Of a stretch of 64,000 nucleotides of DNA, positions 35,626 through 39,241 are shown piece by piece; positions within the stretch are counted from its first letter, which is position 1; each line of letters begins with the position of its first letter. This stretch comes from Peptostreptococcus canis (GTDB lineage Bacteria; Bacillota; Clostridia; Peptostreptococcales; Peptostreptococcaceae). Both the position numbers and the translations under genes were made by a program. The stretch lies in the NCBI RefSeq assembly GCF_014229965.1, contig NZ_JABGBW010000001.1, forward strand, positions 387,769 to 451,768. Direction: 5' to 3'. A model generated the notes under the pieces. That model was given only the letters and a program-made list of their open reading frames with translations. It made no database searches and was not told the DNA's origin.

Positions 35626-35704
35626 AAAATTATTTTATTATATCATATTATATTATATAAATGTACTATGCAAATATTTTTATTAGTTACATTATATAAA
35701 AAAA

Positions 35705-35735
35705 TGAAACTGATTATTGTTTCATATGGTATAAT
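35705..35735 (+). promoter_or_regulatory. Promoter and dyad of the DUF3800 gene
   Basis: An extended -10 (TGGTATAAT; TATAAT 35730-35735) lies just after a perfect dyad TGAAAC (35705-35710) / GTTTCA (35719-35724) in the -35 area. The dyad could be an operator. Confidence 0.45.
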
Positions 35736-35757
35736 CAAATAAATAGGTGGTGAAAAG

Positions 35758-36468
35758 ATGGATGCATTGGCAGAAAAAATATATTATTTTGATGAATCAG
35801 GGACAATAACTACATATAATAATGGGAATCATAGATTTTTGATTATAGCTGGATTGAAAACTAATAATGTTGAACATACCAAAAGAATTTTCAGAAAAGC
35901 AAAAGTGAAGTATTTAAGTAAAAATCCGGAGTTAGAGTTAGATGTCAGATATGAAATAAAAGGATCTCAGATGAATCTGGATTTTAAAAGGTTTATACTG
36001 GAAGAGTTGATAAGAAAAACCGATATTAAATTTAGTTTTATAGTTTTCGATAATTACCATTCACCTTATAAAATGAGGACAAAACCGGCAATAACGTTTA
36101 ATTATTTAATGTATTTATTGATGAAACATTTAATTTATGACTGTGATACATTGCATATTAATCTGGACAATAGAAATGTTGCTATAGAAAACTTGAAATC
36201 TTTGCAAGACTACATGACGACAAAGTTTTGTGTTGAGGAAGATCTTTTATATGAAGTAAGAGTTAGTTATTTAGATTCAAAAGAAAATACAATGATTCAG
36301 ATAGCAGATGTATTTGCAAATTTCTTATGGAGGTTACTAAAGGGAAAAAATAACGAAGTAGATCAAAGAAAGGCTATGGATTTATTTAATGAAATAAAAA
36401 TTGGCAACCTTGAAAAATGTGAGTATTTTCCTAAATCAAGTTGTAAGATAAAAGAGTTTTTGGAATAA
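35758..36468 (+). CDS. DUF3800 protein
   Basis: A 236-residue soluble protein. The N-terminal YYFDESGT (Asp-Glu-Ser-Gly) and the late MIQIADVFANFLWR are the two conserved blocks of DUF3800. They suggest an RNase H-like fold with acidic catalytic residues; nuclease activity is inference. DUF3800 genes are scattered in bacterial and phage genomes and are often next to structured RNAs. Here a small RNA gene lies immediately after it on the other strand, tail-to-tail. RBS AGGTGGTG precedes the ATG. The gene has its own extended -10 promoter. Confidence 0.82.
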   Translation: MDALAEKIYYFDESGTITTYNNGNHRFLIIAGLKTNNVEHTKRIFRKAKVKYLSKNPELELDVRYEIKGSQMNLDFKRFILEELIRKTDIKFSFIVFDNYHSPYKMRTKPAITFNYLMYLLMKHLIYDCDTLHINLDNRNVAIENLKSLQDYMTTKFCVEEDLLYEVRVSYLDSKENTMIQIADVFANFLWRLLKGKNNEVDQRKAMDLFNEIKIGNLEKCEYFPKSSCKIKEFLE

Positions 36469-36558
36469 AAAAAATGATATCAACTAAAAGGGGGTTACCA
36501 TTACAGGCAACTTACGAATGTATGTACGCCCTTCTTTTAGAATTACTAATATCATCTT
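36465..36558 (-). ncRNA. Candidate free-standing structured small RNA next to DUF3800
   Basis: On the minus strand a promoter (36565-36593) is followed by about 94 nt with nested pairing and ends in eight U. The outer helix is ATGATAT (36474-36480) with ATATCAT (36549-36555). The second helix is CTAAAAG (36484-36490) with CTTTTAG (36534-36540), extended by GGG/CCC (36492-36494 with 36529-36531) across a 2-base bulge. Inside are two small hairpins at about 36495-36511 and 36513-36522, giving a three-way-junction-like shape. No open frame of note is present. It may belong to the DUF3800-associated RNA motifs; that is inference from position and shape. Confidence 0.6.
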
Positions 36559-36564
36559 TACATT

Positions 36565-36593
36565 ATTATAATACATATTTTATCAGAAATCAA
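36565..36593 (-). promoter_or_regulatory. Promoter of the small RNA
   Basis: Read on the minus strand: TTGATT (36593-36588), exactly 17 bases, TATAAT (36570-36565). The predicted start is near 36558, directly before the outer helix. Confidence 0.75.
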
Positions 36594-36687
36594 TGTGATA
36601 AAAACTAATATAGTCCTATGTTAAAAAAATAACATATTTATTTGCGCTATTGTTTTTCATGATGGTTTTTAATCCTTATAGCTTGGG

Positions 36688-37509
36688 TTAGCTTGTTTCT
36701 TTTTCAACGGGAAAGCAAACTTCAGTAAGCCAATTTTCAGAACCAACACAATCGTTTGGCGGTTTATGATATATGTTATACATAGAACCGGCAAAAACAT
36801 AATGATTATCCTTTAACCAGTTTGCTACAGCTAAATTTAGTCCATTCATGAAATCAAAGTCGCCTTGCATAACAACTGAAATTATAGTCTTAGGACTCTC
36901 AGTTTTAAAAGTTATATTATGTAAATTCGAATACTCTCCTATTACACTACATTGTATTTCAATATCAATATTTGCATCCTTAAATTCTTTGTCATGATAA
37001 ATTGATATATTATATGGAGGGTTTTGTAACTTTATATCCTGTTCAGTAATTTCGCGAAGTATAGTTTGAAAAAGTTCTTTTTCCTCTTGATAAGAATTTA
37101 CTTTTTTACGCAAACTTACTACATTTTGTCGAGGAATTTTTTTCAAATTGATTTTAAAACTGTAAATTGAGCTGTTATCTATAGTTTTTAAAACAGAATT
37201 AATATGTGTAATATTATTTTCTATATCCTTTAATTCTTTTTGACGTTTTATCAGTAGATCATTTAGATACGAACTCATATACTTTGAATCATTACATTTG
37301 TCTAACAAAGATTTTATTTCTTTCAAGCTTATACCCAGACTTTTCAGAGTTTGTATTGTATTTGCTATCAGTAATTGTTCTTCATTATAATACCTATAAC
37401 TGTTACTTTTATCTACATAGGCAGGACTCAATAAACCTATTTTATCATAGTGTCTAAGCATGCGTACTCCTATCTGAGACAGAACTGAAAATTCTCTTAT
37501 CTTAAGCAT
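36688..37509 (-). CDS. MerR-family regulator with GyrI-like effector domain
   Basis: About 273 residues. The N-terminal MerR HTH reads IREFSVLSQIGVRMLRHYDKIGL followed by the SYRYYNEEQL wing. A coiled dimerisation helix spans about residues 80-110. The C-terminal 150 residues look like a GyrI/BmrR small-molecule-binding domain (DFMNGLNLAVANWL). ATG 37509 gives the normal MerR N-terminus; an in-frame ATG at 37527 is possible. Between this gene and the divergent gene at 37754 lies a 19-bp-spacer promoter with a dyad, the usual MerR target. The ligand is unknown. Confidence 0.85.
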   Translation of the reverse strand: MLKIREFSVLSQIGVRMLRHYDKIGLLSPAYVDKSNSYRYYNEEQLLIANTIQTLKSLGISLKEIKSLLDKCNDSKYMSSYLNDLLIKRQKELKDIENNITHINSVLKTIDNSSIYSFKINLKKIPRQNVVSLRKKVNSYQEEKELFQTILREITEQDIKLQNPPYNISIYHDKEFKDANIDIEIQCSVIGEYSNLHNITFKTESPKTIISVVMQGDFDFMNGLNLAVANWLKDNHYVFAGSMYNIYHKPPNDCVGSENWLTEVCFPVEKETS

Positions 37510-38892: not shown

Positions 38893-39241
38893 TGGTGGAG
38901 ATGAGGGGAGTCGAACCCCTGTCCGTAAATCTATTCCCTGCTGTATCTACATGTTTAGCCATCTCTTTTATTTTCTTGACTCATTTGACTCCGAGTGACA
39001 GGATTCAAATGAGTCCAGTCTTAATAAATCGACTTTTAGGTCAAGACACCCCTAAAGTAGTTCCCTGCATAAATGGCGTCAGTTCTTAATCGGCAGGAGG
39101 ATTAAGAAGGACGAGCTGCTTAGGCAGCTAATAAATTATTTTCGTTTGCGTTTGTTTTAATTTCCCCAGTTTTTACGTGACCCAGAGTAACACGACATGC
39201 AACCTCAAGTTCAAAACCCACGTCGAAACCGGTACATCCCC
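38893..39241 (-). ncRNA. ssrA: tmRNA
   Basis: Transfer-messenger RNA, about 349 nt. The 5' end GGGGATG pairs with CATCTCC before the encoded ACCA 3' end, making the tRNA-like acceptor stem. The T-arm is GGGGTTCGACTCCCC. The tag frame starts at a GCA resume codon (39149-39147) and reads ANENNLLAA, ending at TAA (39122-39120). The rest forms the pseudoknot domain. A 17-bp-spaced promoter lies upstream and a terminator downstream. Its partner smpB is at 35145 on the plus strand. Confidence 0.97.

Follow-up and report, generated by a model that had tools for sequence, protein, structure and literature searches.

In a 64,000-nucleotide stretch of the Peptostreptococcus canis genome (contig NZ_JABGBW010000001.1, positions 387,769 to 451,768; hereafter, the window), we found a small structured RNA that converges on a gene encoding a DUF3800 protein. 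The RNA is a real RNA gene, probably transcribed separately, and together with RNAs from satellite phages and from Listeria and Enterococcus it forms a new RNA class, as covariance models of its branches recover one another and its helices covary. Judged from sequence, the class is probably a branch of the DUF3800 RNAs that is absent from Rfam 15. We propose, with a probability of about 0.5, that this RNA would hold a putative DUF3800 nuclease inactive, i.e., that it would be the RNA antitoxin of a defence or addiction module.

The window RNA and its probable promoter

The RNA lies on the minus strand (Table 1) and consists of helices P1 (14 pairs) and P2 (7 pairs), an inner junction and a closing U8. 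An earlier note, made from the letters of the window, had described about 94 nt with two outer helices, two inner hairpins and eight U, and this description proved right. The RNA of 36,464-36,562 folds at -24.7 kcal/mol, as compared with -13.8 +/- 2.8 for shuffled sequences (z -3.9; 0/200 shuffles as good), and the plus strand of the region folds less well (z -2.65; 4/200 as good). This plus-strand folding, the U8 and the convergent placement would suit a mere bidirectional intrinsic terminator between two genes; however, given the sequence-specific conservation, the promoter-like site and the covariation at loci where the RNA lies on the gene's own strand, we find this explanation hardly credible.

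The minus-strand promoter claimed by the earlier note (TTGATT, 17 nt, TATAAT) is present. For comparison, we used 20 RNA loci (18 adjoining DUF3800, and the orphans L167 and L222) in which the RNA 5' ends were set by eye. A site of the sigma-70 type with at least 9/12 matches, ending 4-9 nt upstream of the RNA, was seen in 16 of them, the remaining L072, L080, L038 and L033 having 7-8/12 matches, which is unremarkable individually. Summed over the 20 loci, the matches reach 190, as against 122 +/- 9 (maximum 150) in 300 single-base shuffles. A scan for promoter-like sites is by itself uninformative (31 found vs 30.4 expected).

The RNA is present as a single copy in its own genome according to covariance model R2 (see below), and blastn with the window RNA gave there, apart from its own locus, a single match of 33 nt that looks like chance. 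Searched against relatives and phages, it gave only short or weak matches; therefore, plain DNA similarity misses the RNA family. Antisense control of DUF3800 was considered and rejected, as the match to the start region ranked 15, 55, 13, 13, 90 and 6 of 100 at six loci, which is not significant.

Covariance models and covariation

Model R1 was built from seven short-class rows including the window, and R2 from ten long-class rows without it. R2 finds the window RNA with 56.9 bits (E 3.2e-12 in 347,183 bases) and scores the short class at 34.5-45 bits, recovering the window and all six short-class loci offered; hence, the covariance model of homologous loci that the earlier note had proposed supports its reading of the RNA. 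R1, in turn, gave 26 matches in 56 sources (461,633 bases), a set identical to the 26 sources in the pattern family, and recovered 14/14 long-class loci offered (E 1.1e-9 to 1.8e-5).

In alignment A7 (18 distinct rows), which was fitted to the model and is biased towards the structure, 96.5% of the cells are paired, as opposed to 39.0-44.7% in slid versions, and changes on both sides occur in 16 of the 27 pairs. Alignment A4, made by sequence alone, yields 96.6% paired cells with two-sided changes in 15/38 pairs, and its extra pair types are no more numerous than in shuffles (179/500 as high). Single-sequence folds are not convincing throughout (z -1.7 for Javan304, 0.05 for Javan555 and -0.2 for S. 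entericus; -2.8 to -4.4 for the long class). The proposition that loops are more conserved than stems is untrue for A7 (the mean top frequency being 0.777 for unpaired and 0.765 for paired positions) and weakly true for A8 (0.819 and 0.744, respectively).

Linkage of the RNA to DUF3800 in mobile elements

As a query, the DUF3800 protein matched 2 of 61 genomes (its own and G043) and none of the eight other genomes of the genus. Its nearest relatives belong to Streptococcus satellite phages (43-49% identity in the closest 18 records), and those of Listeria phages and of the satellites Javan529 and Javan276 share 35-38% identity. By tblastn, 32 phage records hold a relative, which in 30 covers at least 80% of the query, and the RNA lies 3' of DUF3800 in all 30; no phage record has the nuclease gene without the RNA. 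The partnership that the earlier note had offered is thus borne out at the level of linkage. The 30 records comprise 18 short-class satellites, Javan529, Javan276 and 10 Listeria records, many of them near-identical or duplicate; among nine of the 30 in which the reading frame was checked, it is open in eight, Javan552 having two internal stops.

At the first eight loci (seven phage records and one Listeria plasmid), an RNA-like element stands directly 3' of DUF3800 in 8/8, and all of these elements have an outer stem, end in a U-rich stretch and share UAAUUCU...GUAAG(U/C)U...AGUU. A strict RNA pattern found 33 loci in viral contigs, two of them chance-like, with a DUF3800 open reading frame (ORF) in 24 of the other 31 and none in 7; in genome contigs it found 14 loci, of which five are apparently true (L157, L159, L162, L167, L169) and two of these five have the ORF. 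A looser pattern, among the 80 of 106 stretches listed, gave 73 new loci, including five of the Javan529 type with DUF3800; the remaining 68, which lack DUF3800, are chance-like. A peptide-pattern search for DUF3800 relatives in genome and viral contigs found none.

Moreover, RNA and gene are co-oriented in each of the 40 fetched matches, drawn from other genomes and elements, that contain the two, and are opposed in the window alone (41 loci). The opposed placement argues against a leader or a 3' untranslated region element in the window. At L046 (3837-3983), Gp21-1, which is annotated as a PSA gene and may be a spurious ORF, overlaps with the RNA 3' end.

Loss of the protein gene

Of 33 satellites with a short-class RNA, 18 carry the gene as judged by coverage, 2 have it truncated and 13 show none at E 1e-5. 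The earlier note had counted a hairpin without a DUF3800 neighbour in relatives as evidence against itself; such hairpins do occur (15/33 satellites without a full gene, the 7/31 viral and 3/5 genome loci of the strict pattern, and one distant-class orphan genome), and we read them mostly as later gene loss. Among 18 aligned RNA-bearing loci, seven break patterns were distinguished (Table 1); the eighteenth locus, L050, which stands outside the own-class comparison, has no DUF3800 ORF in 11 kb. The breakpoints and gene remnants at the loci examined point mostly to a later loss of the protein gene, and the orphan RNAs have model scores equal or near to those of paired ones. Such losses fit an antitoxin-like RNA rather than refute a partnership of RNA and DUF3800. 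We chose an RNA antitoxin as the mechanism mainly because an antitoxin may outlive its toxin, whereas the reverse would not be tolerated.

Distant relatives and the DUF3800 RNAs of Rfam

Ten distant DUF3800 loci (L022, L033-L041) were found by protein search only, at 28-34% identity, and nine of them carry an RNA of similar layout (by eye or pattern). L022, L034-L038 and L040 share the outer stem, AGUAAG, the inner stem, a small hairpin and GUAA(G), as well as a closing strand resembling (C)AAUU and a hairpin whose loop is U-G-rich; in L033 and L039 the likeness is looser, and at L041 (a short partial protein match) neither R2 nor R3, a model of nine RNAs from six distant loci, found an RNA. 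Tandem RNA pairs occur at L022 (2204-2438), L038 (2210-2450) and in genome G411 (L040; 897-1112), and at L035 an RNA copy flanks the gene on either side. Such copies, and a nuclease adjoining an RNA with conserved loops, would be expected if the RNA were a substrate or sensor, i.e., if DUF3800 matured or destroyed it, or if a phage-induced change in the RNA signalled infection. However, no cleavage site is evident and the retention of RNA without protein is equally awkward here, and we regard this explanation as improbable.

The R3 alignment has 97.7% paired cells and two-sided changes in 18/25 pairs, with a pair-type count that is matched by 166/500 shuffles. Of the 13 distant loci offered, R1 reaches none and R2 reaches three, L174 (E 0.0064), L033 (0.0098) and, weakly, L034 (0.24), where the RNA lies just 3' of DUF3800 in each. 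Among 391 genomes of the class, R3 matched 7 at 10 places, nine of which adjoin DUF3800 in genomes that either contributed to the model or share its RNA; the sole new genome, G401 (L222 8130-8220), holds an orphan RNA whose neighbour is a SocA_Panacea gene (an antitoxin domain), and the 16 kb fetched there contain no DUF3800. In the phylum (388 genomes), R2 matched two, that of the window and G712, in which the RNA lies 120 bp 3' of a same-strand DUF3800 gene (PF12686 E 2.4e-15).

These searches also bear on the idea that the RNA is the element's own regulatory RNA and DUF3800 unrelated cargo. DUF3800 and the integrase flank the RNA in PSA and the fetched short-class satellites, and in satellites the RNA remains when DUF3800 goes; however, it tracks DUF3800 in the window and, by eye or model, at 9/10 distant loci, and G712, the one further genome matched by R2, has an adjoining DUF3800, so that we consider this idea very unlikely.

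At gathering thresholds, Rfam 15 matched the transfer-messenger RNA (tmRNA) alone in the window, with no DUF3800-I, DUF3800-XI or other family. RF02969 (DUF3800-I; gathering 44.2 bits) gave no match to 36300-36750 at E up to 10, which rules out DUF3800-I membership by the Rfam threshold. Likewise, no DUF3800-like Rfam match was obtained at gathering for 18 satellite, Listeria and distant loci, with E up to 10 for the RNAs of PSA and Javan304, or in L171, L173 and L174. This negative result is informative because the same library finds DUF3800-I and DUF3800-XI at other PF12686 loci. Hence, of the two possibilities raised by the earlier note, a new variant of the DUF3800 RNAs stands, and a known Rfam motif does not (no match at E up to 10). 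The DUF3800 motifs were reportedly introduced by Weinberg and colleagues in 2017.

A possible shared core would link the window to DUF3800-I through intermediates only. L211 is matched by both models (R2 32.1 bits, R3 80.9), R3 also matches L174 (35.5 bits) and L039 (25.2), and within Rfam DUF3800-I RNAs it matches L184 (27.4 bits, E 0.0018) and, weakly, L193 (17.7 bits, E 0.47), the matched core being positions 21-74 with the P2-P3-P4 junction, UAAG, a UGU loop and UCG. Since the link is a chain of matches (R2-L211, R3-L211, R3-L184/L193) with a weak last step, we regard the window class as a probable distant cousin of DUF3800-I. Both are associated with DUF3800, but both DUF3800-I copies that we saw are upstream of the gene and co-oriented with it, whereas the window RNA is a separate gene, opposed at the 3' end; moreover, R2, the model closest to the window, has no match at L184 or L193. 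DUF3800-XI (RF02975) also adjoins DUF3800 (five of the 20 PF12686 loci on which Rfam was run), but its model is 48 nt long, R2 and R3 do not match at those loci, and RF02975 does not match in the window.

Among 30 PF12686 loci from 27/291 genomes, an RNA was recognised by Rfam or R2/R3 in 11. At L180, promoter-like and hairpin-like sequence just 3' of DUF3800, unmatched by Rfam, R2 or R3, is perhaps another type of DUF3800 RNA (by eye). On the minus strand of L173 (1781-2234), three salivarius-1 RNAs lie upstream of the DUF3800 gene of an L. salivarius plasmid.

The DUF3800 protein

The convergent gene noted earlier indeed encodes a DUF3800 protein (PF12686, E 1.2e-16, 62.2 bits as against the Pfam gathering cut-off of 21). 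DESG corresponds to residues 12-15 and QIAD to 181-184; D12, E13, S14, G15, E66, D98, D137 and D184 are invariant in an 11-row alignment, and nuclease activity is putative, from the conserved acidic residues. A structure comparison (Foldseek, VIA) predicts a likeness to RNase HII over most of the domain, with Argonaute PIWI domains lower in the list; the predicted RNase HII fold agrees with the RNase H-like nuclease suggested in the earlier note. In a sequence search of PDB with the protein, no chain matched at E up to 1. Unlike RNase HII/RNase H2, to which it has ~11% identity, DUF3800 comes with an RNA.

This predicted fold also bears on the main rival explanation, in which the RNA would be a required cofactor or scaffold of the nuclease (a ribonucleoprotein) and not its inhibitor. 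Linkage and an architecture conserved across distant loci would be expected of a cofactor, RNase H-type folds are found in RNA-guided nucleases, and the PIWI domains mentioned above point in the same direction, as does the accompaniment of some CRISPR (clustered regularly interspaced short palindromic repeats) effectors by DUF3800, described in passages of two reports (PMC10910872, PMC12669027). However, variation falls mostly in covarying stems, we saw no variable, free guide-like stretch (by eye, A3, A4 and A8), and the RNA persists without the protein. Hence, we consider a cofactor role unlikely, although it is the most serious competitor of an RNA antitoxin.

Genomic setting and further features

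The pair of RNA and DUF3800 gene sits between smpB and the tmRNA gene (ssrA). In four of the eight other genomes of this genus, the tmRNA gene shares its strand with smpB and comes no more than 200 bp after it; in G002 it lies ~4 kb away and opposed, as in the window, and in the remaining 3/8 none was seen in the fetched stretch. The smpB stretches of G002 and G007 hold no copy of the RNA, and no insertion scar or direct repeats were found around the pair. Relatives of the pair are located in satellites and prophages, and the smpB-ssrA interval is apparently a variable site that takes up mobile cargo.

The TGAAAC/GTTTCA dyad that the earlier note placed in the DUF3800 promoter is present at 35,705-35,724. 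On the minus strand of its longer form (Table 1), a U-run follows, resembling a weak terminator, and the model search gave a 13.5-bit noise match there. Dyads upstream of DUF3800 were also seen by eye in L044 and L047.

Table 1. Features of the window and break patterns at aligned RNA-bearing loci
Feature	Position	Strand	Basis or remark
Dyad ATGAAAC/GTTTCAT adjoining extended -10 (TGGTATAAT), DUF3800 promoter region	35704-35735	+	read from sequence
DUF3800 gene, 236 amino acids	35,758-36,468	+	predicted RNase HII-like fold
Structured RNA, ~94 nt, 5' end near 36560	36467-36560	-	fold z, R2 score, covariation
RNA promoter TTGATT (36593-36588), 17 nt, TATAAT (36570-36565)	36565-36593	-	comparable site at most of 20 RNA loci
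P1 5' arm, pairs with 36483-36470	36546-36559	-	fold; two-sided changes in 8/11 pairs of P1 in A7
UAAUU internal loop	36541-36545	-	invariant across 18 distinct A7 rows
P2 5' arm, pairs with 36490-36484	36534-36540	-	fold and covariation
P4 hairpin GUUGCC-UGUAAU-GGUAAC; first G is last base of conserved GUAAG	36494-36511	-	fold and covariation
U8 tract	36474-36467	-	overlaps last 2 nt of convergent DUF3800 stop codon
tmRNA	38893-39241	-	Rfam; 3.3 kb from smpB, opposite strand
Break pattern, L062 type (eight loci)			resumes at last base of DUF3800 stop codon
Break pattern, L054/L218			within last 29 codons
Break pattern, L170			deletion removing start and about first two-thirds of gene
Break pattern, L061/L221			start codon to near gene end
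Break pattern, L162			just before RNA
Break pattern, L167/L220			near end, 76% identity
Break pattern, L157/L169 (E. asini vs E. dispar)			last ~19 codons kept

Proposed mechanism

The structure and covariation of the RNA, the promoter-like site before it, its association with DUF3800, the RNase HII fold predicted for the protein and a loss pattern that spares the RNA are computed results, from which we infer a two-gene RNA-protein module. A small three-way-junction RNA, made from its own sigma-70-type promoter and ending at its own U-tract, would bind the RNase HII-like DUF3800 protein and keep it inactive, in the way the RNA acts in toxin-antitoxin pairs of a type III-like (AbiF/RCd22-like) kind. 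A phage or stress would then halt the supply of the RNA or destroy it, and the freed nuclease would cut nucleic acid, so that the cell or the phage is stopped.

In type III toxin-antitoxin systems, a tandem-repeat RNA lies upstream of the endoribonuclease toxin gene; the window RNA, which is one unit, encoded opposite to the gene and located at its 3' end, is not a member of that type. For AbiF/RCd22 of a Clostridioides difficile prophage, a structured non-coding RNA (the abiF motif RNA) is reported to bind and neutralise a prophage-borne toxic protein in cis and in trans (PMC12373285). This likeness is an analogy and not membership, and DUF3800 differs in being RNase H-like.

Several observations weigh against an RNA antitoxin. 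The DUF3800 protein was unmatched by the anti-phage defence profiles of PADLOC 2.0 at E up to 1, and 19 of the 30 PF12686 loci of the class (20 of the 30 given to Rfam) have no RNA recognised by Rfam or R2/R3; thus, the rule that joins DUF3800 to an RNA holds for the window's branch and not for all PF12686. Moreover, the orphan RNAs are near-identical to paired ones within a few lineages, and, given such recent common descent, they may simply be undecayed, which weakens the argument from gene loss. The DUF3800 gene of Javan552 (L045 2992-3684) has its two internal stops beside an RNA the same as that of Javan555, although any model allows this. Finally, L218 (1807-2733) and L220 (2126-2812) have lost DUF3800 and kept the RNA with an RNase_T-family exonuclease alongside; this is perhaps just cargo, but such genes beside orphan RNAs mean that the RNA could have another partner.

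In a wider and more tentative view, which we hold to be possible at less than even odds, RNase HII-fold enzymes would be silenced by a small three-way-junction RNA, and DUF3800-I, the distant class and the present class would be branches of one ancient RNA antitoxin spread over phages, satellites and bacteria, the orphan RNAs of satellites serving as immunity against the nucleases of rival elements.

The literature passages on DUF3800 give no function for DUF3800 RNAs. Our findings link separate types of these RNAs into one probable family, and suggest that phage satellites retain the RNA when the nuclease is missing, as an antitoxin would be expected to be retained. As the pair of RNA and nuclease is compact, with an RNA structure that covaries strongly and many close relatives in mobile elements, the question of whether the RNA inhibits or arms the DUF3800 protein is directly addressable.
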